Part shown: in pieces, positions 2,812 to 38,001 of the stretch
How positions within the stretch are numbered: the stretch's first letter is position 1
Layout: each line of letters opens with the position of its first letter
The notes under the pieces: generated by a model
What the model was told of the DNA's origin: nothing
What the model saw: the letters and a program-made list of their open reading frames with translations, nothing else
Databases searched by the model: none
Origin: a virus
Length of the DNA: 40,830 nucleotides
Virus record (IMG/VR): IMGVR_UViG_3300020603_000050
Location: 1 to 40,830 of that record
Direction: 5' to 3' (one strand)
Position numbers and translations under genes: made by a program

Positions 2812-3375
2812 TTATTCACAATCTTCAGGAATAATATAATTATTATCTTCAGAAATTATAGGATTACCCGATTCACTCGTGATATAATAAGTAATAAGTG
2901 TTGGTGTTGGAGTTAATGTAGGCGTTTGAGTATTAGTAGGTGTTGGAGTTTTAGTTGGGAATGGTGTTATACACGGGTCCCAACTTGGTGTAGGTGTTGG
3001 AGATGATTTAGGTGTTTTAGTTGGTGTAACACTTTTAGTTGGTGTTGGTGTAATAAATTTACAAGGGTCAATAGTTTGAGTTGGTGTTTGGGTAGGAGTT
3101 GGTGTTGGTGTGGGGGTTTTTGTAGTTGTGTTACTAGGTGTTGGAGTTGGAGTTGGTGCAGGAACGTTTAAATAATAAGTACAACTTTCCTCAACAAGGA
3201 AAATAGTGTAATCACCATATGGTTTTAAAGGAGGAACTAATAAAGAAGGGTCGAATTCAAAAGGTAATGTAATATTACCCAAATTAATGACTTTGTTAGA
3301 CCCCGATGGTTTAAATAACACATTCGCCAATTCACCATCGTAATTTATACTTTTTATTACTATAATTTCACTCAT
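2812..3375 (-). CDS. Thr/Pro-rich putative virion protein (187 aa)
   Basis: A compact N-terminal region of about 75 residues, which looks beta-rich, is followed by a T-P-T-rich region (about residues 73-165). That region is interrupted by two short Cys-containing stretches (around TIDPCKF and SWDPCITPF), and the protein ends in a short acidic tail. The start overlaps the stop of 3375-6224 in a TAATG arrangement, so the genes are translationally coupled, and the next T-P gene begins 20 bases after this one ends. I do not recognise the N-terminal domain. The shared composition suggests this is a companion of the two flanking T-P proteins in one surface or fibre structure; that is an inference. 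Confidence 0.8.
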
Positions 3376-7109: not shown

Positions 7110-7572
7110 AGATTTATACGGAAATAAAGTCCAATTACCTGAAGATGTTATGACCTATTTAAAACAATGTCATGACGCAGCTCAAGGTGCGGATGAAAAC
7201 ACCGAAGGTTTTAGAAGAAATAAAGAACTTAGAGATAATGGTGAAATTTCATACCAACAACTAAAAAGAATGAAAAATTGGTTTGATTCATTCAATGGAA
7301 GAGAAAACGATTTACCATTTATATTAAATGGAGGTCATTATGTTAGAAATTGGGTTGATAATACCCTAACATCAATGAGGGATGGTGTACATAGTTTAAA
7401 ACAAAATAGGTCTGAAGTTCTTCCTAACCAATTTATAGACCCACATGAAAAAAATGGAATAAACAATTTAAATAGACCATCAAAAAGTCATAGTAGTAAC
7501 ACCGAATATTATAATTTGGAGGTTACCGAAAGCCTAAAACGCATAAACGACTTAATTAAAAAAATAATTTAA
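7102..7572 (+). CDS. Conserved-looking phage protein with C-terminal tag-like helix (156 aa)
   Basis: The start is GTG at 7102, inside the last codons of the preceding gene; no ATG is available before residue 17. The core contains QLKRMKNWFDSF, LPFILNGGHYVRNWVDNTL and a charged N-terminal half, and has the look of a soluble helical protein. I recall similar proteins in environmental phages but know no function for them. The last 18 residues (LEVTESLKRINDLIKKII) resemble the RLTESDLxRIIKRVI segment found at the N-termini of 24390-24623 and 24630-24941, here placed at the C-terminus. The next gene starts two bases after its stop codon. Confidence 0.75.
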   Translation: MNKDLYGNKVQLPEDVMTYLKQCHDAAQGADENTEGFRRNKELRDNGEISYQQLKRMKNWFDSFNGRENDLPFILNGGHYVRNWVDNTLTSMRDGVHSLKQNRSEVLPNQFIDPHEKNGINNLNRPSKSHSSNTEYYNLEVTESLKRINDLIKKII

Positions 7573-7574
7573 AA

Positions 7575-7871
7575 ATGGCAGTAAATGAACCTTTAAATTT
7601 TGAACAACCTAAAAATGAGTTAAGTTCAATAGCTGAGGCGGAAAGAGCTAAATTATTACCTAAAAATGATTTTAAAAAGACCGCAAATGAATACTCAAGT
7701 GTTAATCCTGATGCTTTAGCCGATGGTGATGAGCAAGGTAAAGGTACGGGAGGATTTTTAGATGTTTATAACCAAGGAGCAGGAGCAATCCAAGATATTT
7801 TGGAAAGAAAAGCTGAAATAGTTATTAACGAATATCAACCTAACAAACCATACACAACACCATCCGCGTAA
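7575..7871 (+). CDS. Small hypothetical phage protein (98 aa)
   Basis: The ATG at 7575 follows the previous stop with an A-rich leader. The protein has a charged helical N-terminus, a central VNPDALADGDEQGKGTGGFLD stretch with a conserved look, and a C-terminus containing ERKAEIVINEYQPNKPY. It overlaps the next start by one base (TAATG), so it is coupled to the WYL-like gene. I recognise no catalytic motif. Small size, Gly/Asp-rich centre and position in a cluster of putative virion genes suggest a structural accessory protein, which is not demonstrated. Confidence 0.75.
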   Translation: MAVNEPLNFEQPKNELSSIAEAERAKLLPKNDFKKTANEYSSVNPDALADGDEQGKGTGGFLDVYNQGAGAIQDILERKAEIVINEYQPNKPYTTPSA

Positions 7872-8272
7872 TGAAACTTTACAACATAACTAAATCACTT
7901 ATTTTAGAAGTAGCTTCTGTCGAGTCTATAATAGATTCTATTAAGAAAAAACAAAAAATAGTAATTTATTATGATGGTGACGAGCCAGGTGGTAGGGGAT
8001 TACGTGTTATTGAACCTGTTTGTTTTGGTTACAGTAAAGCGGATAACCCTGTTTTAAGAGCTTGGGATGAAGAAGGTTCTTCACACACAGGATATAAAGG
8101 TGAACAACCATTACCTGGGTGGAGACTTTTTAGACTTGATAAAATTTTATCATTTAAACCGACCGCTGAAAATTTTAACACACCAAAACCTGGTTATAAT
8201 CCAAGAGGTGATAGAAGTATGAAAAGAGTAGTGATTAACGCGGTCTTTAATAATGAAGAAGAAAACATTTAA
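7871..8272 (+). CDS. Stand-alone WYL-like domain protein (133 aa)
   Basis: After a short N-terminal helix (MKLYNITKSLILEVAS), residues 17-95 match the WYL pattern: KIVIYYDGDEPGGRGLRVIE, then EPVCFGYSKADNPVLRAW, then GWRLFRLDKILSF. WYL domains of the SH3-like type normally sit on transcription regulators or CRISPR and defence regulators and bind nucleic acid or small ligands. Here there is no helix-turn-helix, and the neighbours are small phage proteins. The N-terminal LILE gives an I-x-E site of the type cut by T4-like prohead proteases, so packaging into the head is possible. It may instead act as a ligand sensor or single-stranded DNA binder in the infected cell. Confidence 0.7.
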   Translation: MKLYNITKSLILEVASVESIIDSIKKKQKIVIYYDGDEPGGRGLRVIEPVCFGYSKADNPVLRAWDEEGSSHTGYKGEQPLPGWRLFRLDKILSFKPTAENFNTPKPGYNPRGDRSMKRVVINAVFNNEEENI

Positions 8273-24389: not shown

Positions 24390-24623
24390 ATGAAAAAGAT
24401 AATAAGATTAACTGAAAACGATTTACATAATATTGTTAAGAGAATCATCAAAGAAGAAGAAAAAGAAACATTAATAAAAAAATTGATGAGAAAACTTAAA
24501 GGTGTTGATGACAAACAATTAGATTATAATATTAAAAATGACTTACCTTGGGATTGGAAAGGTTCTAAAGAGGGTTATTATGAAAAGATGGAAGGTCGTA
24601 GACACCATTCAGGTTCAAATTAA
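24390..24623 (+). CDS. Small protein with N-terminal RLTENDL tag (77 aa)
   Basis: The first 26 residues (MKKIIRLTENDLHNIVKRII then KEEEKE) form an amphipathic helix nearly identical in pattern to that of the next gene, and contain I-I-K-E, an I-x-E site. The remainder is small, basic and polar, with WDWKGSKEGYYEKMEGRRHH near the end. In T4, internal head proteins carry a short N-terminal capsid-targeting sequence removed by gp21 after (L/I)-x-E, and this tag fits that pattern. That it is packaged is inferred; the mature part is not recognised. Confidence 0.75.
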   Translation: MKKIIRLTENDLHNIVKRIIKEEEKETLIKKLMRKLKGVDDKQLDYNIKNDLPWDWKGSKEGYYEKMEGRRHHSGSN

Positions 24624-24629
24624 TAAACA

Positions 24630-24941
24630 ATGAAAAAGACAGTAAGATTAACGGAATCAGATTTAAATCGAATCATTAAAAGAGTTATTAATGAATCTGA
24701 CGAAGAATTTGATGACGAGATTGGTAATTCTAAATTTAGTGTCGAACCTAATGTTAGAATGCAACCAAGAGAAAAGGAGATTGAATCTTTATTTGGTAAA
24801 TATGATGAGCAAATCCCTGCTGACATTTTAAGATACATGAGAAAAAATCCCCAATTAATTATGGATAGATTAGCCAAAATATATGGTGAAAAGTTCATAA
24901 AATATGCAGATAAAGCATATGTGAAATATCTTAATATATGA
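24630..24941 (+). CDS. Small protein with N-terminal RLTESDL tag (103 aa)
   Basis: MKKTVRLTESDLNRIIKRVI is followed by NESDEE, so I-N-E is a candidate prohead-protease site at about residues 20-22. The rest contains an acidic stretch and a conserved-looking helical part (KEIESLFGKYDEQIPADILR, then PQLIMDRLAKIYGEKFIKY). It follows the similarly tagged 24390-24623 by six bases and overlaps the next gene by four bases, so the three form a cluster. I know this N-terminal pattern from uncultured phages but no established function. A packaged internal protein is the working inference. Confidence 0.75.
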   Translation: MKKTVRLTESDLNRIIKRVINESDEEFDDEIGNSKFSVEPNVRMQPREKEIESLFGKYDEQIPADILRYMRKNPQLIMDRLAKIYGEKFIKYADKAYVKYLNI

Positions 24942-25402
24942 AAAATTTAAATACACTTATAAAAAAAGTTTTAAGGGAAGAGGCGTACGAAAGTAGTAGA
25001 TATATGTTCTTTTCTAATTTAGAACAAATGAGAAGACAATGTGATTTACTATTAGATTTAGACCGTAACATGGTAGAATCTATTTTAGAGAATGGTCACG
25101 ATTGGGCACAAGACCATATTGCAGAATCTAAAAATACTTTAGACCAAGTTTTTGATTTTATAATGAATCAGTCAAAAAAAGATGGTATGGAATTATCTAT
25201 GAATATAGATGATAAAGATATGGTTATGATGGAAGGTAGAAAGAAAACGGGTACTAAATTATGTGCTCGTGGTAAAGCGGCCGCCAAGGCGAGGTACGAC
25301 GTATTTCCCAGTGCATATAGTAATGGACATGGAGTACAAGTTTGTAAAGGAAAGATAAAAGGTCTCGATGGTAAAAAGAGATGTTCACCACCTTATTGTT
25401 AA
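24938..25402 (+). CDS. Tagged protein with Cys-containing DUF5872-like C-terminus (154 aa)
   Basis: The N-terminus MKNLNTLIKKVLREEAYESS is a short basic helix ending in L-R-E, another candidate cleavage site. The middle is acidic and helical. The last 50 residues, beginning KKTGTKLCARGKAAAKARYD, continuing through VFPSAYSNGHGVQVCKGKIK and ending KKRCSPPYC, resemble the small Lys/Cys/Ala-rich DUF5872-type module seen in giant viruses and phages. Four Cys residues could bind metal. It is basic enough to contact DNA. It is the last gene before a strong terminator and overlaps the previous gene by four bases. Confidence 0.7.
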   Translation: MKNLNTLIKKVLREEAYESSRYMFFSNLEQMRRQCDLLLDLDRNMVESILENGHDWAQDHIAESKNTLDQVFDFIMNQSKKDGMELSMNIDDKDMVMMEGRKKTGTKLCARGKAAAKARYDVFPSAYSNGHGVQVCKGKIKGLDGKKRCSPPYC

Positions 25403-25410
25403 AAAATAAA

Positions 25411-25435
25411 AGAGACTAAACGTCTCTTTTTTTTT
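25411..25435 (+). terminator. Rho-independent terminator after the tag cluster
   Basis: AGAGAC (25411-25416) pairs with GTCTCT (25422-25427) around a five-base loop, followed by a run of T. It ends the long plus-strand unit that starts with the baseplate genes. Confidence 0.85.
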
Positions 25436-25467
25436 GTATTTTAATGTTTACCCATACATTTATTAGT

Positions 25468-25950
25468 ATGGATAAACAATGTAGTAAATGTGGTAAAATA
25501 AAGTCAGAAAATGATTTTTATAAAACACAAAGAGGTAGTAAATGTAAAGAATGTATTTTAATTGATACAAGAGAATATAAACGAAAAAAAAGATTAGAAC
25601 CTAAACATAGAATCAAGGAGAGTATTAAACAAAAAGAAAGAAGAGTAAGACTTTGGCAAAATACCTTAATAAATGATTCAAAACATCGTAACTTAGAAAA
25701 TACTTTAACGGTTAGTGATATTAATGAGATGTTTGAAAAACAAAACGGTTTGTGTTATTGGTTTAAAGTCCCTTTAATACCATCAAACTATAAGAAACAT
25801 CCCCAACAACCTTCTTTAGATAGGTTAGATAGAAATAAAGGTTACACTAAAGAAAATGTTGTATTATGTTGTTATTCCGCCAATATAGGTAGAAATGAGA
25901 ACGATTTAAATACGTGGACTAATTTTATTAACTTGTTAAAGACTATTTAA
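25468..25950 (+). CDS. HNH-family homing-type endonuclease
   Basis: The ATG at 25468 is preferred to one at 25444 because the shorter form begins at the zinc-ribbon-like CSKCGKIKSENDFYKTQRGS then KCKEC. The C-terminal part has the degenerate HNH pattern QNGLCYWFKVPL, then PSLDRLDRNKGYTKENVVLC, then ANIGRNENDLNTW. The H-N-H centre is represented by S-L-D-R-L-D-x-x-x-G-Y-T-x-x-N-V, a known variant of free-standing phage endonucleases. It sits alone between a terminator and a convergent gene, with 15 bases overlap at its 3' end, which fits a mobile intruder. The usual first catalytic His (in a D-H-I/V-x-P motif) is not obvious, so activity is uncertain. Confidence 0.75.
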   Translation: MDKQCSKCGKIKSENDFYKTQRGSKCKECILIDTREYKRKKRLEPKHRIKESIKQKERRVRLWQNTLINDSKHRNLENTLTVSDINEMFEKQNGLCYWFKVPLIPSNYKKHPQQPSLDRLDRNKGYTKENVVLCCYSANIGRNENDLNTWTNFINLLKTI

Positions 25951-26559
25951 AACTCTATTAATAATTTTAGATAAAGACTCCTCAAGAGTCTTTTTCTTTT
26001 TTGGTTTGTATGATGTCATCACAGGTTTTTGACCTTTACCACTTTGTGTATCTTTTTTCTCAGCCGCTCTTTTTTGTTGACACGCCGCTTTCTTTTGTGA
26101 ATCAGACATTTTACCCGCAACACCCGCCGCTCTACACTTAGGGTACGCACCTTTATCAGTATTAGGCCTTCCACATGGAGGATGTTTACCGTCCTTATCT
26201 TTACGACATATGTTAACCCAAGGACCTTTTGGTTGTGAAGAACCTTTTGGTTTCTTTTTAGTACCAAACCAAACCGCTAAATCTTCATTAATAGTGTGTA
26301 CATCATGTGTCGGAACATCGTAAGTACCATCAGTACCTTTTTCCCACATTCCTACTACACGAGCTTTATTATTCTTTAGAGTTTTTTGTTTACTAAGTTT
26401 ATTAAGTTCATTTTTTAAACTTACGTAAAATGGACCCATTTCGGATTTTTTCCATTTTTTTATACCTAATTCTTGTGGACCGTTATAAACACCTGCAGTT
26501 AATGAAGTCATCGTTGCTTCATTTATTGGTAATTTATTAACGTCAATCCATTCATCCAT
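25936..26559 (-). CDS. Cys-rich DUF5872-like protein with C-terminal tag-like helix (207 aa)
   Basis: The ATG at 26559 is chosen over a TTG further upstream. The N-terminal part (DEWIDVNKLPINEATMTSLT) is followed by a conserved central region with KGPWVNICRKDKDGKHPPCG, then YPKCRAAGVAGKMSDSQKKA and the basic GKGQKPVMTSYKPKKKK, resembling DUF5872-type proteins of phages and large DNA viruses. The Cys and His residues may bind zinc. The last residues (LEESLSKIINRVLNSL) look like the tag helices of other proteins here, but at the C-terminus. I-N-E near residue 13 is a possible protease site. The gene converges on the HNH gene with a 15-base overlap. Confidence 0.7.
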   Translation of the reverse strand: MDEWIDVNKLPINEATMTSLTAGVYNGPQELGIKKWKKSEMGPFYVSLKNELNKLSKQKTLKNNKARVVGMWEKGTDGTYDVPTHDVHTINEDLAVWFGTKKKPKGSSQPKGPWVNICRKDKDGKHPPCGRPNTDKGAYPKCRAAGVAGKMSDSQKKAACQQKRAAEKKDTQSGKGQKPVMTSYKPKKKKTLEESLSKIINRVLNSL

Positions 26560-26562
26560 ATC

Positions 26563-26570
26563 TATAAATA
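26563..26570 (-). promoter_or_regulatory. Putative promoter element TATTTATA before 26559
   Basis: On the minus strand AAATATTTATAGAT directly precedes the ATG at 26559 with a three-base gap. The spacing is short, so the transcript would be nearly leaderless or the element is coincidental. Confidence 0.35.
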
Positions 26571-26653
26571 TTTTAATAATGTAAAAACTTTTAACAAGAC
26601 CTGTTTTTATCAATATTTTATCCTATACTTAATTGAATATAAAAAATAAAATT

Positions 26654-27067
26654 ATGAGGAGAATTTTTAAAAGGTTGTACGTTAAGTGGTCATTATTATT
26701 AAAATATAAATTCATGAAGTCTGAGGATGATGAATTGTCGGAAAATGAAAGGACTTGTGTTAGTATTTGTAGAGGTTTAATTAGACATGACGATTCTAAG
26801 TTTTTAATCGCTCCTCTATCAGGTAAACGTTATATCAGAAATACAACTCTTGATTTATTTGTTATTTTAGATGATAGACGAGTAAGTATGACTAATCATG
26901 TATATCATTATGATGTTAGATTAGTACAGAGGGATTGGGATAGATTAACAAATATGTATGATAATAAAACAGAAAAAATAAGAATTGATTTAGAAAATCA
27001 AATTAAGTCTCAAATAAACTATTCCTTACATACAATTTTGGAAAAGGTTAACGGTTCATTAAATTAA
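26654..27067 (+). CDS. Hypothetical protein (137 aa)
   Basis: The ATG at 26654 is preferred to a TTG at 26633. A basic N-terminus (MRRIFKRLYVKWSLLLKYKF) precedes a compact domain with CVSICRGLIRHDDSKFLIAP, then LSGKRYIRNTTLDLFVILDD and a strand-like MTNHVYHYDVRL, and a helical C-terminus rich in Lys and Asn. No family is recognised, though the compact beta-rich core looks conserved. It is followed four bases later by a small gene, and the pair ends at a bidirectional terminator. Position among cargo-like genes is suggestive but gives no function. Confidence 0.7.
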   Translation: MRRIFKRLYVKWSLLLKYKFMKSEDDELSENERTCVSICRGLIRHDDSKFLIAPLSGKRYIRNTTLDLFVILDDRRVSMTNHVYHYDVRLVQRDWDRLTNMYDNKTEKIRIDLENQIKSQINYSLHTILEKVNGSLN

Positions 27068-27071
27068 AATT

Positions 27072-27308
27072 ATGGAAGAAAAATTATACGGAAAATTATT
27101 TAATAATATACAACTACAAGATGAAAATCATTTAGAGGTATTACTCGATACTATGGATAAGGACAGAGCAATTTATCTTTTGGTTGAAGCGATTAAATAT
27201 TGTCATAATATGAGTGCCTTTACTCTTGGTGAGTCTGAAGTTATTTCTAAATGTATTAGAGTATTAAGTAGGGAACAAGTTGGGAAGGGAACTGAAGATG
27301 ACATATAA
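27072..27308 (+). CDS. Small hypothetical acidic protein (78 aa)
   Basis: The 78 residues are acidic and helical, with YGKLFNNIQLQDENHLEVLL, then KDRAIYLLVEAIKYCHNMSA and GESEVISKCIRVLSREQV. There is no membrane segment or metal-binding cluster. The leader is A-rich, and the gene directly follows 26654-27067 in the same unit. I do not recognise it. Confidence 0.7.
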   Translation: MEEKLYGKLFNNIQLQDENHLEVLLDTMDKDRAIYLLVEAIKYCHNMSAFTLGESEVISKCIRVLSREQVGKGTEDDI

Positions 27309-27310
27309 TA

Positions 27311-27339
27311 AAAAAGACCGATTTGTAGTCGGTCTTTTT
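27311..27339. terminator. Bidirectional terminator between convergent genes
   Basis: GACCGA (27316-27321) pairs with TCGGTC (27329-27334) around a seven-base loop, with A-runs on the left and T-runs on the right, so it can act on both strands. It separates the plus-strand pair ending at 27308 from the minus-strand genes ending at 27360. Confidence 0.85.
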
Positions 27340-27359
27340 ATTTTACTATATTTTATTTT

Positions 27360-27863
27360 TTAACCAAAATTAAATTCTTGTCCCACCACATTAGGGTCTA
27401 TACCACCACCTCCTGATGCTGCGTCGGTTGAAGTTTGTGTTGTTGAGCCAGCAACCGTAGTTGTTGAAGTTACTGAACCACCCGCTACTGTAGTAGTAGG
27501 TGTTGTGGATACTCCTGTTGAGGTTCCTGCAGATGAACCTGATGAACCCTCGAGAGCGTTCATAATTGCACCAAGAGTTAAAGGACCAACTCTACCATCC
27601 TCTTTTAAACCAGCACTAAATTTTGTATTGAGTAATTTTTGAACTTCTAAACCTGTGGCTTTTCTAGTTGTTTTAGTAGTTGTTGAAGGAGTGCTTGATA
27701 CGGTCGGAGCAACAGTTTTAGGTCCAACACTAACTTCTTGTTTACCACCAACCACAAAATCTGTCACATCAGAACTTTCTTGTTCAGAAATAACTTTACC
27801 TCTCCTATAGTCAAAGAGATATTTCATTTCATTTATTTCTTTAAGTATATTAGTATTTTTCAT
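27360..27863 (-). CDS. Tagged protein with peptidoglycan-binding-like module (167 aa)
   Basis: Residues 1-27 form a helical leader (MKNTNILKEINEMKYLFDYR) followed by V-I-S-E at 24-27, a candidate prohead-protease site. Residues 71-104 (GLEVQKLLNTKFSAGLKEDG then RVGPLTLGAI) have the pattern of PG_binding_1 domains (Q-x-x-L then D-G-x-x-G-x-x-T). The rest is a low-complexity Thr/Ser/Gly/Ala linker. There is no signal peptide. Such a module normally anchors cell-wall enzymes. Here no catalytic domain follows, so binding may be its only role. It is the last of three related minus-strand genes. Confidence 0.75.
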   Translation of the reverse strand: MKNTNILKEINEMKYLFDYRRGKVISEQESSDVTDFVVGGKQEVSVGPKTVAPTVSSTPSTTTKTTRKATGLEVQKLLNTKFSAGLKEDGRVGPLTLGAIMNALEGSSGSSAGTSTGVSTTPTTTVAGGSVTSTTTVAGSTTQTSTDAASGGGGIDPNVVGQEFNFG

Positions 27864-27865
27864 AA

Positions 27866-28321
27866 TTATTTGGTAGTTTTGTTAAATACTTTTTTACAAA
27901 GTCTATAGTCTTTATTAGTTTTTCTTGTACCACAAGCTTGTTCTAAAGTTGTTGCCCCCGCAACAGGTGCCGCTGAGAATGTTGTAGTGGTAGCCGCGGC
28001 AGGTGTAGTAGGTGTAGTAGGGGTTGTTGGTGTAGTAGGTGTAGTAGGGGTTGTTGGTGTAGTAGGTGTAGTAGGGGTTGTTGGTGTTGCAGGTGTCGTA
28101 GGTGTTGCGGTTTTATTGGTCGCCGCCGCTGATGAACCTCCACCTAATTTTGCGATAATAGATGAGATTGTTTTAGGTCCTGCCACACCATCCGCAGTTA
28201 AACCTAAAGATTTTTGTATTGCCATAATATCGTCTTTAGCAGCCTCATTTAAAAATGATTTACTACCGTGTTTTAAAAGAATACTTCTTTTTTCTTCTTC
28301 AGTTATAATTAATCTTTTCAT
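27866..28321 (-). CDS. Tagged peptidoglycan-binding-like protein with TTP repeats (151 aa)
   Basis: Residues 1-26 (MKRLIITEEEKRSILLKHGS then KSFLNE) resemble the leader of the next gene and end in L-N-E before Ala-Ala, a good T4-type cleavage context. Residues 31-59 (DIMAIQKSLGLTADGVAGPK then TISSIIAKLG) form a PG_binding_1-like module. A TTP/ATP repeat (about 72-107) follows, then a C-terminal region with two Cys about 13 residues apart (ACGTRKTNKDYRLCKKVF). There is no signal peptide. The gene lies two bases from 27863 and 21 bases from the 28343 gene, so all three are probably co-transcribed. Confidence 0.75.
   Translation of the reverse strand: MKRLIITEEEKRSILLKHGSKSFLNEAAKDDIMAIQKSLGLTADGVAGPKTISSIIAKLGGGSSAAATNKTATPTTPATPTTPTTPTTPTTPTTPTTPTTPTTPTTPAAATTTTFSAAPVAGATTLEQACGTRKTNKDYRLCKKVFNKTTK
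28002..28082. repeat. Three perfect 27-base tandem repeats
   Basis: A 27-base unit (starting GGTGTAGTAGGTGTAGTAGG) occurs three times head to tail at 28002-28028, 28029-28055 and 28056-28082. It encodes nine-residue T-T-P units in the minus-strand gene 27866-28321. Perfect identity at third codon positions suggests a recent expansion. Confidence 0.9.
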
Positions 28322-28342
28322 GATTATATTTTTCTTAATTTA

Positions 28343-29362
28343 TTAAATTCCTAATTTAGTTCTAACTGCCTTAGCAGTCACATCATCAAACACACCTGTT
28401 TCCGCAACTCCAACAAGTTTTTGGACTTGTTTTACATTGGATTGAGCCACAGGACTTGGTGTTTTAGTTGCGGTTTTACCTGTTGTTGAGGTTTTACTTG
28501 ATGTAGAAGTTTTACTTGAGGTTGTTGGGGTTACTGTTGAGCCAGGACATGTATACGATTTCATAGTACCATCAGGAGCTTTATATCTTCCGTTGTCATA
28601 ATAAACAGAACCACCGATTGTGATTGCATAACTACCATTAGACATTTTACCTGGTTTAGCGTCCTTATTGTTAAGGATACATTTATATTTAGCCCACGAA
28701 GGTTGCCATTTAACCATAGACGCAATCATCGCGGCTTTAGCACTTCTTGAAATTGCTCCGAACATACCTCCTCCTGAAGATTTTCCTGCTCCAAGTTCTT
28801 CTGATTTTCTTTTAGCTGCTAATAATGGTTGGTATACATATTTATTCCATTCACTATCACTATCGATATCACCATCTAAATCACCTAATAATGTACTACC
28901 AGGGTAATTTTCAGCATATCTTTTATTAACCGCACATAAATCAGGAATTGTTGCGATTTGTCCTAATGCCGATTTAATAGCATCTTCATCGGTACCCCAT
29001 CCATCAATTGCGGTTCTCACTTGTTTTGAGATACTATCGAGAGTTCCTCCGTTCATTGTTGATTTACCCATACCTGAAGCATTACAAGCGTCAAATATTT
29101 TTTTAACACCATTATAAGACCCTGCAGATGAATTAACATAAGCCAAAGCGGCTCCCACAACACCACCTAAAGCAAGTCCTGTCGCTACCGCTCCCGCATC
29201 AGCTTCATCTAATTCAGAATATTCATACATATCTGATTTACCACATCCCTCACACATTCTATTATCCATGTCTTCGGTTATGTATTGTTTTCTTGTGGCA
29301 CTCTTATGAAGTTTTAAAATTCTTTCTTTTTCTTCTTCATTTAGAAAATACAATTTTTTCAT
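28343..29362 (-). CDS. Tagged protein with annexin-like repeat and C-terminal peptidoglycan-binding-like module (339 aa)
   Basis: The leader MKKLYFLNEEEKERILKLHK ends at Y-I-T-E (27-30), a candidate prohead-protease site; L-D-E before Ala at 51-53 is a second. Residues 55-76 are a Gly/Ala-rich hydrophobic helix. Residues 112-182 resemble one annexin repeat (AIDGWGTDEDAIKSALGQIA, then YAENYPGSTLLGDLDGDI), with the G-x-G-T-D-E signature except Trp at the second position. A small region with YAITIGGSVYYDNGRYKAPD follows. After a Thr/Ser linker, residues 310-339 (NVKQVQKLVGVAETGVFDDV) look like a shortened peptidoglycan-binding module. The annexin match is by eye. The protein may bind membrane or wall. 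Confidence 0.7.
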   Translation of the reverse strand: MKKLYFLNEEEKERILKLHKSATRKQYITEDMDNRMCEGCGKSDMYEYSELDEADAGAVATGLALGGVVGAALAYVNSSAGSYNGVKKIFDACNASGMGKSTMNGGTLDSISKQVRTAIDGWGTDEDAIKSALGQIATIPDLCAVNKRYAENYPGSTLLGDLDGDIDSDSEWNKYVYQPLLAAKRKSEELGAGKSSGGGMFGAISRSAKAAMIASMVKWQPSWAKYKCILNNKDAKPGKMSNGSYAITIGGSVYYDNGRYKAPDGTMKSYTCPGSTVTPTTSSKTSTSSKTSTTGKTATKTPSPVAQSNVKQVQKLVGVAETGVFDDVTAKAVRTKLGI

Positions 29363-29911: not shown

Positions 29912-31792
29912 TTATCTCAATTCTCTTAAGTCGAATGTACGGATACCATCAACAGTTACTCTACCATAGAAACGGTTGTTAACCATTTTCTTAGCGTATC
30001 TTGTCATAATACCTTTGATAGGTGTAAAGTTGAATGGGTTATACATTGTAGGTGTTAATTGTAGAGGTACATACGGTGCGTAGATGTAACCTGTGTCTAA
30101 CAATGACGTTCCCTTGTGACCAATTAAGATTTGGTTTGGTGGGAAGTAAGGGTCACGGTAAACTTGGTAACGACCTGATAATGTACCAACTCTTTCAATA
30201 CCCATGTTGTATTGGTCTTGCTCAGGAGACGCGTTAGATACGTGGAAGTATTCTAAATCATCAAAAATCGCAGAAACCTCAGAAGATACAACAATCCAGT
30301 TAGCTCCACCTCTTAAAGTAGATTTGTGGATTTGTGCTGACAATTGGTTGATTGCAGTAATCAATGTTTGGTTCCAGTCTTTTTGTGTATACGCAGTAGT
30401 AGCGTTGATTCTTCTCCATCCGTTGTAATCCCAACGTAAGTTCCAAGCCGCACCTTTTCTAAGGTCTCTTAAGATTTCACGGTCGATTTCTGCCGCAACT
30501 TGTTCAGATAATAAAGCCGTTAATTCAGCTTCAGCATCGATGTTGTGGAATGCCGCTACGTCTTGAGCCAATTCAGGTGACCATTGTGCTCTTAATTTTC
30601 TTTCAGTTACAGAAACTGTTACAGACTCAAGGTCGAAAGAAACCTCACCGATTTTGTCTTCGAATTCAAGTTCTTTGTAACGTCTAAATACTGCAGTGAA
30701 GTCATTAAGACCTAATGTATCGATTGTAGTACCTGTGTAACCATCTAAAGATGTTGCGTTACAGTTAGCACATACAGGACAAGAAAGGTCAACTTCTAAA
30801 AAGATACATCCATCAGGAGTACAAATATCATTAAAGTATCCACCATTTCCTTCTGTAGGCCAAGATGCTTGTGCTCTTGTTGATAAATTAGAAACAATTC
30901 CTTGTCCATATTGTTGTGTAACTACACGGAACAATAAAGAATTTGGTATAGTTTTAGCGTCGTCAGCAAAAACAACATTACATGGTGAATCATCATCTGT
31001 GAAATTTTCGTTAGCGAATACTCTTAAGTCTGCTAAGAATGATTCAGTATCATACTCATTTCCATCAGGTCCGATTAATTTACCATTACCTGTGTTAGCA
31101 AAACCACACATTTTAACGATTACTTTTCTTACGTTTTCGCCATTGTATTGACCATCAGCGTCAACTAAGTTAGAACCATTCCAAACTTGTACGTCTGTAG
31201 TTGCAGTAATCGCCGACCACTGACCTTTAGAGTAATCAAATAATCCTGGAGGGTCTAATTGACCTTCATTACCTTCATAGAATAAATCGTAAAGATTTTT
31301 CTTGTAAGTAGGATTGTAATTAGACGCAGTACCTGTAGTATAACCTTGACCAGCTTTAGCTTGGTCAGCAGTTAAACCGTTTACTGCTCCAACAGGACCG
31401 TAATGTTCTCCTGAACCACCTGAATAAGTCGCCGCATCATAACTACCATCTTTATACCCTTGGATTTTAGGTACGAAGTAGAATAATTTACCGATAGGTA
31501 AGTTCATAGCTTGTACAGACACGATGTCGTTAGCTAATAATTTAGAGAATACACGTCTAACGATTGGGAAAACAACAGTTTCAAATGAACCTGAAGAACC
31601 GTCAGAAGTTGCCTCATTAATTAGGTGAGACGCTTGGTTCTCATATAACTGAGCTACGTTCTCTTTTAAATGTCCTCTTAGACCTTCTAGGAATCCTAAT
31701 CTATCCCATTTGTTAATTGTATCTTCTTTGATAACTTTAAGGTGCTTAAGACCGATGTTACCAACAAGACCTGATTCTAATAATGCTCCCAT
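29912..31792 (-). CDS. Major capsid protein, gp23-like
   Basis: This 626-residue protein forms the head shell. The T4 gp23 signature is strong at VTVSVTERKLRAQWSPELAQ followed by DVAAFHNIDAEAELTALLSE and QVAAEIDREIL. Near the C-terminus TGYIYAPYVPLQLTP and FTPIKGIMTRYAKKM match the gp23 end. The N-terminal 60 residues end in SHLINE before Ala-Thr-Ser, equivalent to the T4 cleavage at E65 (L-T-E before Ala), so removal by the gp21-like protease is expected. It is about 100 residues longer than T4 gp23. A middle insertion holds five Cys within 21 residues (C324, C329, C338, C341, C344). The leader is unusually A-rich (over 20 A in the last 30 bases), fitting strong translation in Bacteroidota. 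Confidence 0.95.
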   Translation of the reverse strand: MGALLESGLVGNIGLKHLKVIKEDTINKWDRLGFLEGLRGHLKENVAQLYENQASHLINEATSDGSSGSFETVVFPIVRRVFSKLLANDIVSVQAMNLPIGKLFYFVPKIQGYKDGSYDAATYSGGSGEHYGPVGAVNGLTADQAKAGQGYTTGTASNYNPTYKKNLYDLFYEGNEGQLDPPGLFDYSKGQWSAITATTDVQVWNGSNLVDADGQYNGENVRKVIVKMCGFANTGNGKLIGPDGNEYDTESFLADLRVFANENFTDDDSPCNVVFADDAKTIPNSLLFRVVTQQYGQGIVSNLSTRAQASWPTEGNGGYFNDICTPDGCIFLEVDLSCPVCANCNATSLDGYTGTTIDTLGLNDFTAVFRRYKELEFEDKIGEVSFDLESVTVSVTERKLRAQWSPELAQDVAAFHNIDAEAELTALLSEQVAAEIDREILRDLRKGAAWNLRWDYNGWRRINATTAYTQKDWNQTLITAINQLSAQIHKSTLRGGANWIVVSSEVSAIFDDLEYFHVSNASPEQDQYNMGIERVGTLSGRYQVYRDPYFPPNQILIGHKGTSLLDTGYIYAPYVPLQLTPTMYNPFNFTPIKGIMTRYAKKMVNNRFYGRVTVDGIRTFDLRELR

Positions 31793-31835: not shown

Positions 31836-33569
31836 TTATCTTAATTTTGACATTAAGTCTTTCATTCTTAAGAATTGTGGATTTTCATATGTCTTAGACT
31901 CAATCAAGTTAACCGCTGAACCTGTAGAAGGAGTTTTTTCAATTACTCTTTCAAATGATTCGTTGATTGGTGATTGGTTTGATGACACAGATAATTCATC
32001 CTTAACTTGGTGATATAAATTCTTAGACTCTTTAATAGTTTCTACAGAATCAAATCTTCTTAATATATTTATTTTTTCTTGTTTAGACGTTGAGTGTTCT
32101 GTAAACAAACGTGTAGCGTAAGCCAAGTTTGAGTTAAACACCGCAACCTCATTCAATTTATTTCTGAAGATATTTAATGCTTTTCTGTATTCTTCATTTT
32201 TTTCTCTAAGGATTTGTATTTCTCTCGCGTCAACGTTTTCAAACGTAAGGTTTCTATTAGGAGTGATTCCTTTTCTAAGCCCTCTTCCTGATTTAGAACC
32301 ATTACCATATGTACGTGCCGCTTCTTTTGCTTCAAACTTTTTAGGTTTAACTCTAAATTCTCCATCCATTTGACCATTATCTTTGTCAGCGTCAAACTTA
32401 GATGCTTTTTTAGCGTTTCCAAATCCAATTCCTTTACCACCGTAACCTTGTTTTTTCACACGTAAGTTTTGGTTAGGTTTGCCATCATAAGAAAATTTAG
32501 GTTTACCCATTCCGACTCCAGGTATTTTACGTGACATTTTTTTACTTTCCATTACAGGTTCTTCCATATCTTCATCAATACCTAATCCTCCTGATATTCC
32601 TCCTGCTAAAGCACCACCCCAAGACCATTCTTCAAGTTCATCATAATCTCCATCTTTATAGTCATCCGTAGTGTCATATTCATCTTCATCTTCACCACGT
32701 CTACCAAAATGGTATTTTAAATCACGATATCTAGAGTGGCCCCGTTCAGAAAGTTCAGGTTCTTCTCCATCAAATTCAATTTCGTAAACGATATCATCGT
32801 TATCCTCACCTAATTGGTCAGCACCTTCGTCTCCGTACATTTTGTTCATATCAATACTATCGAAATCATCTTCATCTAAGGCACCCATATTTGCTTCATC
32901 GTCATAATCTTCGCGAACGGCAGCGTAAACACCTTCGTCCATACCACCAAGTCCAACAAAGTCAGAAGTGTCATCATAGTCAGAATCTTCAGAATATTCA
33001 TCTTCAACACCAAAAACTCTTTCAACAAGAGCATCGATATCTTCATTATTCATTCCATCTGTCGACCAATCTTCTTCATTCATATCACCTAATTCAGAGT
33101 ATTCGTTCAGATAATCTTCTTCTTCAATGTTTTCACCTACTATCATATATTCTTTGTTTGTTTCGTTATCTTTTAAGTTTATGTTCCCATTAGGGTCTTT
33201 AGTAACCACTATTTGGTCTTCAGGTCCAAGTAATTGAAACACTTTAAGAACTTCAGAACTAGGTTGACCTGTTAAGTCAATTACATCTTCAGAATCCGCA
33301 TCTACATCAACGTCAATGTCTTCATCACCTAAGTCGTTATCTGTATCCATATCATCTTCGGCATCCATATCAATGTCTGCGTCATCTTCAATGTCAACAT
33401 CTGTTTCAACCTCATCTTCATCTTGTTCAGATAGAGATTCTTTTACTAAATCTTTGATTTCTTGCTTCATCGTTGATGCAAGTATTCCTTTTGCATTTTC
33501 GGCAACCGCCTCTTCCAAATTCTTCATTTGGATGATTGCTTCTTCTACTAATGATTTTTCTTTTGCCAT
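31836..33569 (-). CDS. Prohead scaffold/core protein, gp22-like
   Basis: The protein has 577 residues, about twice T4 gp22. The N-terminal helix (SLVEEAIIQMKNLEEAVAEN) precedes a strongly acidic Asp/Glu-rich region (about 48-330), then a basic Gly/Lys-rich part (about 350-440). The gp22-like C-terminal helix region contains NSNLAYATRLFTEHSTSKQE and KINILRRFDSVETIKESKNL. Several (I/V/L)-x-E sites lie near the end (PINESFERVIEK and NLIESKTYE), as expected for a scaffold degraded by the prohead protease. Position between protease and capsid genes matches T4 order. The large acidic insertion may stand in for separate internal core proteins. Confidence 0.85.
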   Translation of the reverse strand: MAKEKSLVEEAIIQMKNLEEAVAENAKGILASTMKQEIKDLVKESLSEQDEDEVETDVDIEDDADIDMDAEDDMDTDNDLGDEDIDVDVDADSEDVIDLTGQPSSEVLKVFQLLGPEDQIVVTKDPNGNINLKDNETNKEYMIVGENIEEEDYLNEYSELGDMNEEDWSTDGMNNEDIDALVERVFGVEDEYSEDSDYDDTSDFVGLGGMDEGVYAAVREDYDDEANMGALDEDDFDSIDMNKMYGDEGADQLGEDNDDIVYEIEFDGEEPELSERGHSRYRDLKYHFGRRGEDEDEYDTTDDYKDGDYDELEEWSWGGALAGGISGGLGIDEDMEEPVMESKKMSRKIPGVGMGKPKFSYDGKPNQNLRVKKQGYGGKGIGFGNAKKASKFDADKDNGQMDGEFRVKPKKFEAKEAARTYGNGSKSGRGLRKGITPNRNLTFENVDAREIQILREKNEEYRKALNIFRNKLNEVAVFNSNLAYATRLFTEHSTSKQEKINILRRFDSVETIKESKNLYHQVKDELSVSSNQSPINESFERVIEKTPSTGSAVNLIESKTYENPQFLRMKDLMSKLR

Positions 33570-33961: not shown

Positions 33962-34687
33962 TTAGTATCCTAAATAATCGGATAACTTTCTCATTAAGTC
34001 AAGTGATTTATTTCCTGACTGTCCAACATTTCTTTCAATTGACATTTTTTTCTCCTCATCAAGATTTTCCTCGAAATTATTTTTGTCTTCAGGATTTAAA
34101 AATAAATAAGCCCCAGGTGTTGATGGTGACGAAACTAAATCAAAACAAATCAATTCAAAATCATCCTGCACTTCATTTTGTTCCCCAACCTTTTTTAATG
34201 AACCTACCCCACGAGAAGAAATACCAAGAGTTACCCCTTGTCTTAAATAGTTTGCCGCTAAATCACCTTTTGTGGAACACACACCTCTTTCATGAAATCC
34301 TGGGCTTGTAAGTAATTTTAATTTACCCATTAATATTGGTCCATCCCACCATACATCAGTTATAATATGAGATACTCTATCTAAGTCTATAAGAGAAGAT
34401 TCAGGGTGATTCAATTCAGATAATGATGTCCCCTTTTCAATCATTTTTTTGTAATTATCAGCTTCTCTTTTTAAAATCCTTTCAGGGTAAATTCTACCGT
34501 TCCTATTTGGTGTATTATATTTTTGTAATACTGCATAAAATTCAAAAGGTTTTGTATGGTCCATGAAATTTTTGGATTCTCTGATTAGTTCAGAATTATA
34601 CTTATCTTTAGGATTAATAAATCCTGCGTCATATTCGATAAGAATTCCTTTACCTACTTGGCCTGGTTGTATTATTTGTAAACTCAT
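33962..34687 (-). CDS. Prohead core serine protease, gp21-like
   Basis: The protein (241 residues) is a T4 gp21-type prohead protease (peptidase S77-like) that cleaves capsid and internal proteins after (L/I)-x-E. Visible motifs are TPNRNGRIYPERIL (59-72), the catalytic-His region SLSELNHPESSLIDLDRVSH (His94) and the Ser region GVTLGISSRGVGS (Ser157 or 158), followed by a conserved DFELICFDLVSSPSTPGAYL segment. The ATG at 34687 is chosen over a TTG at 34693 because it lies 13 bases after the TATTTATA element, the same spacing as at terminase. Position upstream of scaffold and capsid genes fits T4 order. Confidence 0.9.
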   Translation of the reverse strand: MSLQIIQPGQVGKGILIEYDAGFINPKDKYNSELIRESKNFMDHTKPFEFYAVLQKYNTPNRNGRIYPERILKREADNYKKMIEKGTSLSELNHPESSLIDLDRVSHIITDVWWDGPILMGKLKLLTSPGFHERGVCSTKGDLAANYLRQGVTLGISSRGVGSLKKVGEQNEVQDDFELICFDLVSSPSTPGAYLFLNPEDKNNFEENLDEEKKMSIERNVGQSGNKSLDLMRKLSDYLGY

Positions 34688-34700
34688 TGTCAATTTTAAT

Positions 34701-35262: not shown

Positions 35263-35457
35263 ATGATAATAGTTAAAGTGGATAATAAAAACTCAATAGA
35301 GAAAGCTCTAAAACAATACAAAAGTAAAATTATTAAGATAAGACAAATGTCTGAATTAAATAATAGAAAAACTTTTATAAAGAAATCAGTTATAAAAAGA
35401 CAGGAACTTCAAAAAGCTAAATACGTACAACAAAAATTTAAATCTAATTTAGATTAA
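35263..35457 (+). CDS. rpsU: Ribosomal protein bS21, phage-encoded
   Basis: The 64 residues follow the bS21 pattern: MIIVKVDNKNSIEKALKQYK, then a basic stretch with RQMSELNNRKTFIKKSVIKR and QELQKAKYVQQKF. The F-I-K-x-S-x-x-K-R and A-x-Y-x-Q-x-x-F positions resemble the Bacteroidota form. bS21 sits on the 30S platform beside the anti-Shine-Dalgarno region, and in Flavobacteria it helps hide that region. A phage copy could replace host bS21 and bias initiation on phage mRNAs; phage-encoded bS21 has been reported before. The gene lies alone on the plus strand inside the head module, and its stop overlaps the opposing stop at 35454-35456. Confidence 0.85.
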   Translation: MIIVKVDNKNSIEKALKQYKSKIIKIRQMSELNNRKTFIKKSVIKRQELQKAKYVQQKFKSNLD

Positions 35458-36170
35458 AGATTTTCTTTTAGTTTTTTCAGTTTGAATAGTGTAAACTTGT
35501 TACATTTTTCTGATGATACTCTCTCGATAGTTTCGTTTATTCGGGATAATGTTTCCGAATCGGAACCTTTTTTAAGATTTGATAATTTATTAATTACCTG
35601 ATTTTTAACCTCATTAAAATCATTATTTAGAGATGAATCGTCAGTGTTTAAAAAATCAATTAATTCTTTCTTTTCAGATTCATTTAAACTTTCAACGTAA
35701 CTAGAAATTGTTTTATTTGCTATTCCAACCATAGTACTTAATGGTAGATGAACATATTCTTTTTGTATAGGTTTTGGTTTTGTTAACGATTCTTTAATTA
35801 TTTTTTTACTTTTTATTTTAGATTCAATTGTTAAAACATCAGTGGAAAATAAACTATCAATTTCAGGATAGTCGTTGTTTGAATTGACGTTACTTACCCA
35901 ATTTTTTAATCTTAAAATATCTTTTTCTTTAACTTTATTAATTGTGTTTTCGTAAATGGTTATACATTCATTTATATAATCATTTGCAAGGATATCATTT
36001 AACCCTCTTTTATAATTTAATTCGTCATAAAGATAAAATAATTTACTAATGTTTTTATTCTCTAAAACATATACTTTAAATCTTTTCAATTCTTCTTTAA
36101 AAGTATCATTTGAGTACGACTCAACTAATACTTTTTCTATCTTTGATTTTAATAATCCAAACTTAACCAT
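35454..36170 (-). CDS. Hypothetical helical head-module protein (238 aa)
   Basis: The ATG at 36170 is chosen because it lies 14 bases after a TATTTATA element; an upstream GTG at 36200 would overlap the portal gene and place that element inside the coding region. The protein is Lys/Glu/Asn-rich and almost wholly helical, with KFGLLKSKIEKVLVESYSND at the N-terminus (V-L-V-E is a possible tag site), VGIANKTISSYVESLNESEK in the middle, and a coiled-coil-like end. It follows the portal gene, where T4 has prohead core proteins, so a core or internal role is plausible. I recognise no family. Confidence 0.75.
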   Translation of the reverse strand: MVKFGLLKSKIEKVLVESYSNDTFKEELKRFKVYVLENKNISKLFYLYDELNYKRGLNDILANDYINECITIYENTINKVKEKDILRLKNWVSNVNSNNDYPEIDSLFSTDVLTIESKIKSKKIIKESLTKPKPIQKEYVHLPLSTMVGIANKTISSYVESLNESEKKELIDFLNTDDSSLNNDFNEVKNQVINKLSNLKKGSDSETLSRINETIERVSSEKCNKFTLFKLKKLKENL

Positions 36171-36184
36171 CTTGTATTTTTTAT

Positions 36185-36192
36185 TATAAATA
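36185..36192 (-). promoter_or_regulatory. Putative promoter element TATTTATA before 36170
   Basis: The minus strand reads TTGATATTTATAATAAAA, 14 bases before the ATG at 36170, immediately after the portal stop. Its placement helps decide the start of the downstream gene. Confidence 0.55.
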
Positions 36193-38001
36193 TCAATCAC
36201 CTAAAAGTTTATTCAATCTATCCTCAATTTCACCCAAAGAATTTTTCGCTTTGGATAAATCTATGTAGGAACCATCGTCAGTTAAAGAATCAGATTCTAG
36301 TAATATTTTTAAATTATCTCTATTTAATGATTCAGGGGTTACTCCCGCATCACCGCCAGGTTCAGGTCCAGGAGGTGGTGTAGGTGCTCCCATATCCCCC
36401 CCGCCTGGAGGTGGTGGGGCGGCCCCTCCTCCCGCAGTATCACCTGACTTGGAACCATAAAGTTTATCAACATTATCAAATAAACCTGTGTGACTTATAA
36501 TTGTTGCAGTATTAGTTAATTCAGCACCAACGGCCTTTTCAATTCTTTGTTGTTGTAAATCAAGTTTTATTTCTTCATCTGAGAAACCTAAAATATGTTT
36601 TTTGGCCCATGAAACTGATACAGGAGCAATACCTTCTATTGCGGTTACTGCGTCTTTATATAATAATATTTTTTCTTTCCAAACGTCAACTTTTAATAAA
36701 TCAGCTTGTGTTGATGGGTTAGTTAATCCTAATGTAAAATTACCTAACTCATCTTCAAAACCTAACAGAAATAAATGTATAATCGCAATTTTATTTAATT
36801 CTGCAATCATACATTTTTGTATTCTATTAATAGTTCTTGCAAAACGAATATCTTGTAACGATAAATTTTTACCTTCACCAACAGGTTCTTCAAATCCTAA
36901 AAACGCTTTAGGTACTCGTAATGCGGTTAATAATTTTTTCTGAATATATTCAATATCAGCAATTTCAGCTAAATTTTGAGCCCCAGGTAAAGTGTCAATA
37001 GGTGATGCTTGTGCAGGGTCACGAACAGGAATAAAATAATCTTGGTCTACGGCCATCTGATTAAATCTTAAATCAACATTACCTGTTTTGTCATCTACTA
37101 TTTGATTTCTTTTAAATTTATTGGCAACTCTTTGTACGTATGCCTCAACGTCTTTGTCATCCATATTACCGACAAAAACTTTAAATACTCTTCTTTCAGG
37201 CGCTCTTGATGTTCTATAAATTAACATAGCGTCTTCAGATAATAATAATTGTTTCCAAATACGTCTTGCCTTTTCTAACATAGATGTTCCGTATGGAAGT
37301 TTTCTATCGTCACCTAACAATCTAAAATGTGCTATCTCCCAAGCATTAAATTCCATGTCTTTAATTTTCCATTTAAATCTAAGACCTTTATTCTCTGCAG
37401 GCTCCTCAATATTCTGTCTTGTTGCTTGTGCAGGCATACCTCTCTCTAGTCTTTCAATTTCGATATTTGGTAATTGCATACAACCAACCACACCTTTTTC
37501 TGAATCTAATTTTAAGTAAACAAAATTATCACCATATTTACATGTGTTTCTTGTCCACATTGGTAAATTAGTATTAATATCTAACACATTGTTAAATAAA
37601 TCGGCTAATATTCCTTTAATACGTTTAGATTCCGAATAAATTTGTAACATATAACCATTTTGGTCAACAGTTGTTGATTCTTCACCGTATATATCTAACG
37701 CGGCTGAAATCTCAGGAGTGTATTCCATAGATTCATAATCATAAAATGATGCTAACCTTGTTGGTTCGTAATAGACCGCCTGAGTATATAAGTTACTTTC
37801 AATCTTGGTCCATTGACCCGACAAATACATAGTTTGTTGAGCTTGTAATAACTCTCTATCGTATTCTTGTTTTGAAGTAGTTTTTAATAAATCTTTTTTA
37901 TCAAATTTGTACGTTGGGTAATCTTGATTCAATAAGGCATTGGGTCCGAGTGCATGGGACAACCTTTGCCAAACCGTTAGATTATTGTTATTATTTTCCA
38001 T
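36193..38001 (-). CDS. Portal vertex protein, gp20-like
   Basis: This 602-residue protein forms the dodecameric ring through which DNA enters the head. T4 gp20-like segments include YTPEISAALDIYGEESTTVD, EIAHFRLLGDDRKLPYGTSM, LLSEDAMLIYRTSRAPERRV, FIPVRDPAQASPIDTLPGAQ, and IADIEYIQKKLLTALRVPKA. The C-terminal 100 residues contain a Gly/Pro-rich low-complexity linker and then an acidic helical end, absent from T4 gp20 as I recall it. The leader includes a TATTTATA element 30 bases upstream. It lies between the 49-residue gene and the helical core-like gene. Confidence 0.92.
   Translation of the reverse strand: MENNNNNLTVWQRLSHALGPNALLNQDYPTYKFDKKDLLKTTSKQEYDRELLQAQQTMYLSGQWTKIESNLYTQAVYYEPTRLASFYDYESMEYTPEISAALDIYGEESTTVDQNGYMLQIYSESKRIKGILADLFNNVLDINTNLPMWTRNTCKYGDNFVYLKLDSEKGVVGCMQLPNIEIERLERGMPAQATRQNIEEPAENKGLRFKWKIKDMEFNAWEIAHFRLLGDDRKLPYGTSMLEKARRIWKQLLLSEDAMLIYRTSRAPERRVFKVFVGNMDDKDVEAYVQRVANKFKRNQIVDDKTGNVDLRFNQMAVDQDYFIPVRDPAQASPIDTLPGAQNLAEIADIEYIQKKLLTALRVPKAFLGFEEPVGEGKNLSLQDIRFARTINRIQKCMIAELNKIAIIHLFLLGFEDELGNFTLGLTNPSTQADLLKVDVWKEKILLYKDAVTAIEGIAPVSVSWAKKHILGFSDEEIKLDLQQQRIEKAVGAELTNTATIISHTGLFDNVDKLYGSKSGDTAGGGAAPPPPGGGDMGAPTPPPGPEPGGDAGVTPESLNRDNLKILLESDSLTDDGSYIDLSKAKNSLGEIEDRLNKLLGD

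Follow-up and report, generated by a model that had tools for sequence, protein, structure and literature searches.

Why do at least six different proteins encoded between positions 24,390 and 29,362 of one stretch of viral DNA begin with a short MK-starting segment that ends in a hydrophobic-x-Glu motif? The stretch (IMG/VR record IMGVR_UViG_3300020603_000050, positions 1 to 40,830; 40,830 nucleotides, called the window below) also encodes a gp21-like prohead protease and a gp23-family major capsid protein (MCP). An earlier reading of the sequence, the original prediction, had taken the segments for T4-style capsid-targeting tags that are removed by the prohead protease, so that the tagged proteins would be packaged with the DNA and delivered into the host. 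Capsid targeting and prohead-protease processing are supported by our analysis, which found a modular helix with an MCP-type site, a gp21 homologue, and an association with head genes. We put the probability that the tags are removable capsid-targeting propeptides, serving packaging and processing, at roughly 85%. The (I/L)xE motif is present in all six N-termini as predicted, and the MKK/MKN/MKR start, credited to five of them, is found in all six. The tags include two sequence classes (Table 1; open reading frames, ORFs, are named by their first coordinate): class A, with the consensus MKKxIRLTESDLxRIVKRVIxE, and class B, with the consensus MKxLxITEEEKxRILxLH...(L/I)xE. The tag families are conserved in related, mostly large, uncultured T4-like phages.

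The boundary between tag and downstream protein was examined in loci fetched either by the tag or by proteins of the window, several of the sets comprising loci among the matches listed. When class A N-termini were chosen by residues 1–9 alone (MK[KR]..[RK]LTE), Glu was found at residue 22 in 139 of 143 diverse sequences and a hydrophobic residue at position 20 in all 143; residue 21 varies freely, and conservation is lost from residue 23 onwards (Q 26%, S 23%, N 14%). Among the four exceptions to Glu22, hydrophobic-x-Glu is shifted by 3–4 residues in three, and one is without the motif. A long-form group comes from virus records that reach 413 kb, and its helix is in most cases extended by 4 residues (about one turn); in loci fetched by the long-form profile A3, seeds included, Glu stands at residue 26 in 59/72 and hydrophobic-x-Glu is found in 71/72 N-termini among the matches listed.

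Since many loci had been fetched via the tag, we repeated the count with every seed N-terminus removed. Hydrophobic-x-Glu was then found at the boundary in 122 of 123 non-seed ORFs, compared to 17 of 123 in an equally wide downstream window. The result is similar for short-form loci (80/80, downstream control 10/80), for loci fetched by the MCP, 28343, 25936 or 7102 proteins (13/13, control 4/13), and for loci fetched by profile A3 (29/30, control 3/30). Class B N-termini chosen without using the site contain it in 86 of 87 cases, versus 16/87 and 21/87 in control windows. Regular expressions for the two classes match at the start codons of 290 (class A) and 93 (class B) of 4,986 ORFs of at least 100 amino acids, in loci that are enriched for the tag, with no match in shuffled N-termini and none in random internal stretches. 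The residue after the tag Glu is mostly Q, S, N or E in class A, and Q or A in class B.

An amphipathic helix had been predicted for the six N-terminal and two C-terminal segments. Helical moments, computed for all of the tags but 27360, make it evident in class A (mean 0.84, versus 0.30 downstream and 0.37 in shuffled sequences), in 24938, and in the two C-terminal tags; it is not clear in the class B segments or in 7871, where the helical moment is 0.09–0.26. AlphaFold models, in which the tags have low to middling confidence, place the tag of 24938 in a helix at residues 2–16, with a pLDDT (predicted local distance difference test) score below 50 at residues 14–17, and give 28343 a helix at residues 9–31, with residues 27–72 below 50. 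In both models the predicted cleavage site lies at the end of the helix, ahead of the cargo, where confidence drops. A fold search with the 24938 model (mean pLDDT 68.6) returned no match.

The tags are modular, being found on otherwise unrelated proteins. A search with the 103-residue protein 24630 gave 21 loci, several of which match only its first 22–35 residues. A hidden Markov model (HMM) of 19 tags, profile A1, has matches in all 21 of these records, with up to 19 per record, and there are at least 29 long-form matches in one 335-kb record. Across 380 sequences, class A tags were found on 238 distinct ORFs. What follows the tag falls into 153 clusters by blastp, of which 120 are singletons; the number of clusters is an upper estimate, because single linkage at E 1e-3 splits remote relatives. 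Class B cargo forms 41 clusters. Pfam and PHROG searches with the 140 longest of the 153 cargo representatives gave few names, most remaining without a match. Named families, each seen once or twice among the 25 of 29 families listed, include NUDIX, DUF3293, DUF6576, UPF0227, alpha/beta hydrolase, sigma-70 region 4, annexin, and peptidoglycan-binding.

One and the same cargo may also carry different tags. In the 24938 family, the conserved part of which begins with (R/N)YMFFSNL(E/Q)Q, we found 71 distinct N-terminal extensions, 26 of them LTE-type class A and 45 of short or other forms. All 71 contain hydrophobic-x-Glu within the last 22 residues before the conserved part, a count made without a control window for this family. 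Phage record LR756502 (642 kb) contains a diverged copy that begins MENIKSFDSFNE. The C-terminal third of 24938-25402, a KLCARGKAAAK domain, stands alone between the scaffold and major capsid genes of Prochlorococcus phage P-SCSP2, and is also present in Pelagibacter phages (loci L490 and L491 for the domain relatives).

Annexin-like and peptidoglycan-binding-like cargoes have class B tags in the window and class A tags in some relatives. The cargo of 27866 has a peptidoglycan-binding-like domain that scores below the Pfam cut-off. The cargo of 28343 carries one annexin repeat: the family profile matches annexin VI with E 3.1e-17, and the mostly helical model gives a VIA-align Z of 8.9 over 74 residues (root-mean-square deviation 1.9). 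Weaker values were obtained with the fold search (best Foldseek E 0.055) and with the single protein (Pfam annexin score 18.7, cut-off 25). The four-repeat annexin core is absent from 28343, the best stretch being one repeat at about residues 100–185. In addition to the single annexin repeat, 28343-29362 has an apparent peptidoglycan-binding repeat at its C-terminal end, and this is conserved in related phages. A weaker tag candidate is the WYL-like ORF 7871: its ILE was correctly predicted, stands at residues 11–13, and (I/L/V)xE is kept in 8 of 8 distinct homologues read by eye. The WYL domain itself scores 15.9 bits in Pfam, below the gathering cut-off of 21.8.

Two ORFs, 7102 and 25936, had been predicted to carry the same kind of helix at the C-terminus. 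This holds throughout the 7102 family, where (I/V/M)xE, then S, N or D, then a helix LxRINxLIKKII are found in 33 of 33 distinct C-termini; in the 25936 family the helix pattern fits only 47 of 92. In several 25936 relatives (among them L059, L065, L069, L076, L087, L094 and L102) a complete class A tag joins the domain to another one. We considered, and rejected, a rule by which C-terminal tags would always lack the final Glu. It is true in the 7102 family (terminal hydrophobic-x-Glu in 0/33) and not in the 25936 family, where an inner hydrophobic-x-Glu is kept in 25 of the 47 pattern-fitting C-termini. Because this family breaks the rule, Glu loss was not used to argue for a role in cleavage. 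Separately, ORF 8275-8868 has a conserved internal helix ending in VLxE, after which come NG(L/I/V)xxES and a tail, also conserved, that resembles VGKH(I/V)FEGKVTKIKK; its appearance is that of an internal tag or part of a scaffold.

The presence of a gp21-like protease in the window was confirmed by its family match (Table 1) and by comparison with the T4 gp21 sequence from PDB 5jbl (E 2.9e-14), to which its ELNHP and (I/V)SSRG (ISSRG in the window) motifs align. We take the His and Ser of these motifs to have catalytic roles. The predicted MCP maturation site, INE before Ala at residue 60, proved to be well conserved: 22 N-termini were aligned, 4 are gapped there, and the remaining 18 have Glu in 17, a hydrophobic P3 residue in 18, and Ala following in 17. 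Between the protease and the MCP lies an acidic scaffold-like protein with a conserved IK(E/D)LVKESLSE followed by Q near its N-terminus, a stretch that looks similar to the tags by its sequence. The head-module protein 35454-36200 has KSKIEKVLVE followed by S near its start, and the portal (36193-38001) a conserved ILLE(S/N) at its C-terminus; these are possible further protease sites.

The original prediction proposed a profile search of the tag for co-occurrence with gp21-like proteases. The phrog_207 protease was detected in 24 of 38 records of one set, mostly tag-fetched with some MCP-fetched, and in 14 of 20 records of a second set (one record is shared and negative in both). When only distinct tag-bearing records of at least 200 kb are considered, 21 of 24 have the protease. 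For two misses, G039 and G016, sister records carry the protease beyond the contig end (G040, offset 26,637; G015, offset 140,813). Tagged genes also crowd downstream of the MCP gene. Eighty loci were fetched by the MCP only; among those long enough to score, 24 of 42 have a tagged ORF of class A or B on the same strand in the 5 kb downstream, compared to 1 of 36 in the 5 kb upstream, where either strand was accepted. In long-form records with a protease, a tag lies within 2 kb of it in at least 7 of 10 (1.7 expected, P about 2e-4).

The same prediction would have been damaged by a tag common in phages without a gp21-like protease. In the controls we found no such case: in 30 of 63 crAss-like records (about 2.0 Mb), five of them from metagenomes that also gave long-form records, neither the class A tag (0/30) nor phrog_207 (0/30) was detected, the class B and A3 profiles not having been run. 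The same class A and phrog_207 queries match in other records, and profile A1 detects long forms in 7 of 7 genomes. We also searched, by HMM over whole records, 12 isolates (immuto, Mel-JY01, RM378, T4, phiKZ, crAss001, phi38:1, P-SSM2, G, phi14:2, SCTP-2 and Moabite) and found no class A tag except a 9-residue match in T4 with E 0.054; class B was not searched by profile. Among uncultured genomes, LR756508 has a weak class A match (E 4e-4) and LR756511 none; Lak-A1 has no long-form match. Searching single tag peptides by tblastn against 50,697 phage records gave no match or only matches with E of at least 5, and because this gave nothing useful, no isolate with virion proteomics was found.

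Tags are rare in bacterial genomes. Among 295 genomes from the order of a Prevotella metagenome-assembled genome (MAG), the long-form tag was present in one, the seed genome itself. In a set of one genome per species (about 85,000 species), 57 stretches match the 9-residue pattern and 9 loci were confirmed. Three of the nine belong to one MAG (UBA3650) with protease and tag on the same contig; the other six come from MAGs of Bacteroidales, two of them with sheep rumen or reindeer in the title. We viewed two neighbouring ORFs in each of five of these and the ORF list of the sixth. Ordinary chromosomal genes lie beside the tag in four: Mg-chelatase (L396), transketolase (L401), inositol-phosphate synthase (L404), and, by our reading, lon, dnaK and murF (L399). 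The neighbours in L397 are AAA ATPases and a neighbour in L398 is a transposase, which leaves chromosome or phage undecided. The host cargo of L404 is weakly similar to one of the tagged proteins on phage contig L411 (E 9e-4 across 21 residues, the starts also being alike by eye), a likeness that may reflect capture from phages. The isolated tagged ORFs of these MAGs may have come from phages, or may encode host proteins with the ability to enter phage heads.

These observations are consistent with the following scheme, of which we infer the docking partner, the cleavage, the packaging, and the ejection. Each tag would be a short helix, which in class A is amphipathic and basic, located at the N-terminus and sometimes at the C-terminus or between two domains, that docks its protein in the prohead scaffold core during assembly. 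During maturation the gp21-like prohead protease would cut after (I/L/V)-x-Glu at the boundary of tag and cargo, and the freed cargo would remain in the head alongside the DNA. Ejection of a mixed protein set into the host at infection, as with the T4 internal proteins, would be the likely purpose; we consider such delivery probable, with less assurance than packaging and processing. On balance we also lean, by a small margin over even odds, towards a secretion-system-like programme: some 10–30 proteins per large genome, bearing interchangeable N-terminal, C-terminal or internal tags, would be packed, freed by the protease, and injected as an early effector cocktail. Cargo would turn over far faster than the tag, and the same code would occasionally appear on genes of Bacteroidales chromosomes, which may be phage-derived or encode head-entering host proteins.

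Delivery is the step at which the best-surviving alternative departs. The tagged proteins could be packaged and processed and then remain there as components of the core or organisers of the DNA, as the position of tagged genes near head genes and the stand-alone relative of the 24938 C-terminal domain between the scaffold and MCP genes of P-SCSP2 would allow. We doubt it: the cargo falls into scores of clusters that are unrelated to one another and seldom shared, 120 of the 153 being singletons, and a few of its members are enzyme- or regulator-like (NUDIX, alpha/beta hydrolase, sigma-70 region 4), a picture closer to variable proteins directed at the host than to fixed structure. It seems improbable that the tag is instead a localisation signal for another phage structure, such as a replication compartment, RNA polymerase or the ribosome, with the final Glu only a helix C-cap. 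Helix-turn-helix or sigma-like proteins among the tagged ones, and tags in a few bacterial genomes without a phrog_207 match, agree with that proposal; it leaves unexplained why conservation ends exactly at hydrophobic-x-Glu, why the site survives a lengthened helix or a swapped tag, why it is like the MCP site, and why tagged genes crowd downstream of the MCP gene. A mobile translation-start cassette, spread by recombination and without a targeting role, would account for the shared opening residues of unrelated genes, which frequently lie in tandem clusters. It is very unlikely, as it is the protein sequence that is conserved, and helices of this kind are also seen at C-termini and linking domains, positions that call for no start codon.

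Several results count against the tags being removable capsid-targeting propeptides. The six tagged Bacteroidales MAGs have no phrog_207 or phrog_138 match and are the main evidence against a strict link of tag and protease; a 317-kb tagged record, G066, likewise has no phrog_207 match, and a tagged isolate was not found among the 12 isolate genomes. The long-form excess of tags near the protease fades as the window of distance widens (P 0.001 at 3 kb; 7 versus 3.3 expected, P 0.016, at 5 kb; P 0.07 at 10 kb), and in short-form records a tag lies within 5 kb of the protease in 0 of 6, with 2.4 expected. The residue after the tag Glu is mostly unlike the Ala that follows the MCP site here. L-T-E at residues 7–9 is equally invariant: both Glu9 and Glu22 are invariant in 140 cluster representatives, so that Glu22 is not unique, and Glu9 may be a helix cap or a second site. 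The inner motif retained in the 25936 family blurs the contrast between N- and C-terminal tags. Finally, some cargo resembles transcription factors or NUDIX enzymes, unlike classic head proteins.

The record spans 40.8 kb and is probably a fragment; contigs of 72–103 kb match the compared window proteins at 99–100% identity. Terminase, portal, the gp21-family head maturation protease and the gp23-family MCP are all encoded on the minus strand of the window. Microcystis phage Mel-JY01 and Flavobacterium phage immuto are among the annotated phages with the best relatives of the window capsid protein, at less than 60% identity. Huge phages of freshwater Bacteroidetes are described in passages of PMC9723584 as encoding ribosomal protein bS21 opposite in strand to terminase, portal, protease and MCP; the window has the same layout, and its phage probably belongs to the same broad group. 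The tag is not mentioned in the abstract and passages of that paper. Elsewhere in the window, the 949-residue protein 3375-6224 is TP-rich in places and has, towards its C-terminus, a papain-like cysteine protease domain (Pfam E 2.5e-4), and region 362-2669 contains short repeats, with Val/Gly-rich or Ser/Tyr-rich plus-strand frames as candidate coding frames.

Table 1. Tags, predicted processing sites and head-module features of the window (cleavage positions are predicted)
Feature	Coordinates	Strand	Sequence or basis
Class A tag, ORF 24390-24623	24390..24455	+	MKKIIRLTENDLHNIVKRIIKE then cut; IKE residues 20-22; HMM A1 relatives
Class A tag, ORF 24630-24941	24630..24695	+	MKKTVRLTESDLNRIIKRVINE then cut; INE residues 20-22
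Short class A-like tag, ORF 24938-25402	24938..24979	+	MKNLNTLIKKVLRE then cut; LRE residues 12-14
Third tag variant, ORF 27360-27863	27783..27863	-	MKNTNILKEINEMKYLFDYRRGKVISE then Q; ISE residues 25-27
Class B tag, ORF 27866-28321	28244..28321	-	MKRLIITEEEKRSILLKHGSKSFLNE then A; LNE residues 24-26
Class B tag, ORF 28343-29362	29273..29362	-	MKKLYFLNEEEKERILKLHKSATRKQYITE then D; ITE residues 28-30
Weaker tag candidate, N-terminus of WYL-like ORF 7871-8272	7871..7909	+	ILE residues 11-13
C-terminal tag, ORF 7102-7572	7522..7569	+	VTE then cut then SLKRINDLIKKII
C-terminal tag, ORF 25936-26613	25939..25986	-	LEESLSKIINRVLNSL; phrog_23735 domain protein
MCP, gp23 family	29912..31792	-	phrog_138 E 2.7e-67
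Predicted MCP maturation site	31613..31621	-	INE then A (residues 58-60; preceding L); family alignment
Acidic scaffold-like protein, between protease and MCP	31836..33569	-	Position and composition; no family match
gp21-like prohead protease	33962..34693	-	phrog_207 E 1.4e-42
Ribosomal protein bS21	35263-35457	Opposite to head genes, lying among them	Pfam S21 E 9.4e-9

We know of no account of what huge Bacteroidota phages inject. If the tag is read correctly, a short profile would pick candidate injected proteins directly from metagenomes; the list so far, of 153 class A and 41 class B cargo clusters, would serve for mass spectrometry, and most of the tagged proteins examined match nothing known. 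The tags might also load foreign proteins into phage heads, as passages of PMC9958956 describe for the T4 capsid-targeting sequence (CTS).

The closest known system is that of T4, with which the window shares a gp21-type protease, a gp23-type capsid protein with an (L/I)xE site followed by Ala, and short MK-starting N-terminal propeptides ending in (I/L)xE. In the T4 record the [IL]xE pattern is found in IPII and IPIII (MKTYQEFIAE then A), in IPI (ITE then A at 19), in gp24 (LRE then S at 10), and in gp23 (LTE then A at 65). The sites of IPI, IPII, IPIII and gp24 presumably include the true T4 cuts. According to passages of PMC9958956, gp21 strips short N-terminal peptides from T4 internal proteins, gp23 loses 65 residues, and a CTS of about 10 residues carries foreign proteins into the head. 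The tags described here differ in being 14–30 residues long, in forming two or more sequence classes, none of which aligns with MKTYQEFIAE, in occurring on many more proteins per genome and also at C-terminal and internal positions, and in being followed mostly by Q, S, N or E. Sequence homology with the T4 CTS was not found, profile A1 giving only the 9-residue T4 match mentioned above and the T4 N-termini being different. Because there is no alignment, we do not call the tags CTS homologues; they would work like a CTS, without a claim of homology.

The giant phages SPN3US and phiKZ are similar in having many packaged proteins and a Glu-specific prohead protease. They differ, in the passages of PMC10052503 and PMC5694885, in that SPN3US is cut at A-x-E, mostly behind long propeptides, with about 80% of head proteins uncut, and in that no short tag common to dozens of proteins appears there. 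DarB of phage P1, the N-terminal 30 residues of which direct a reporter to the capsid (passages of PMC9024508), is one large protein, likened here by description and not by sequence. No earlier description of the tags, nor the string LTESDL, was found in the literature searched, supplements and most subscription journals lying outside it. The kind of signal is already known from T4 and P1, as far as passages of PMC9958956 and PMC9024508 describe it; what this analysis adds is the tag families and their scale, the exchange of tags on one cargo, and the C-terminal and internal positions.

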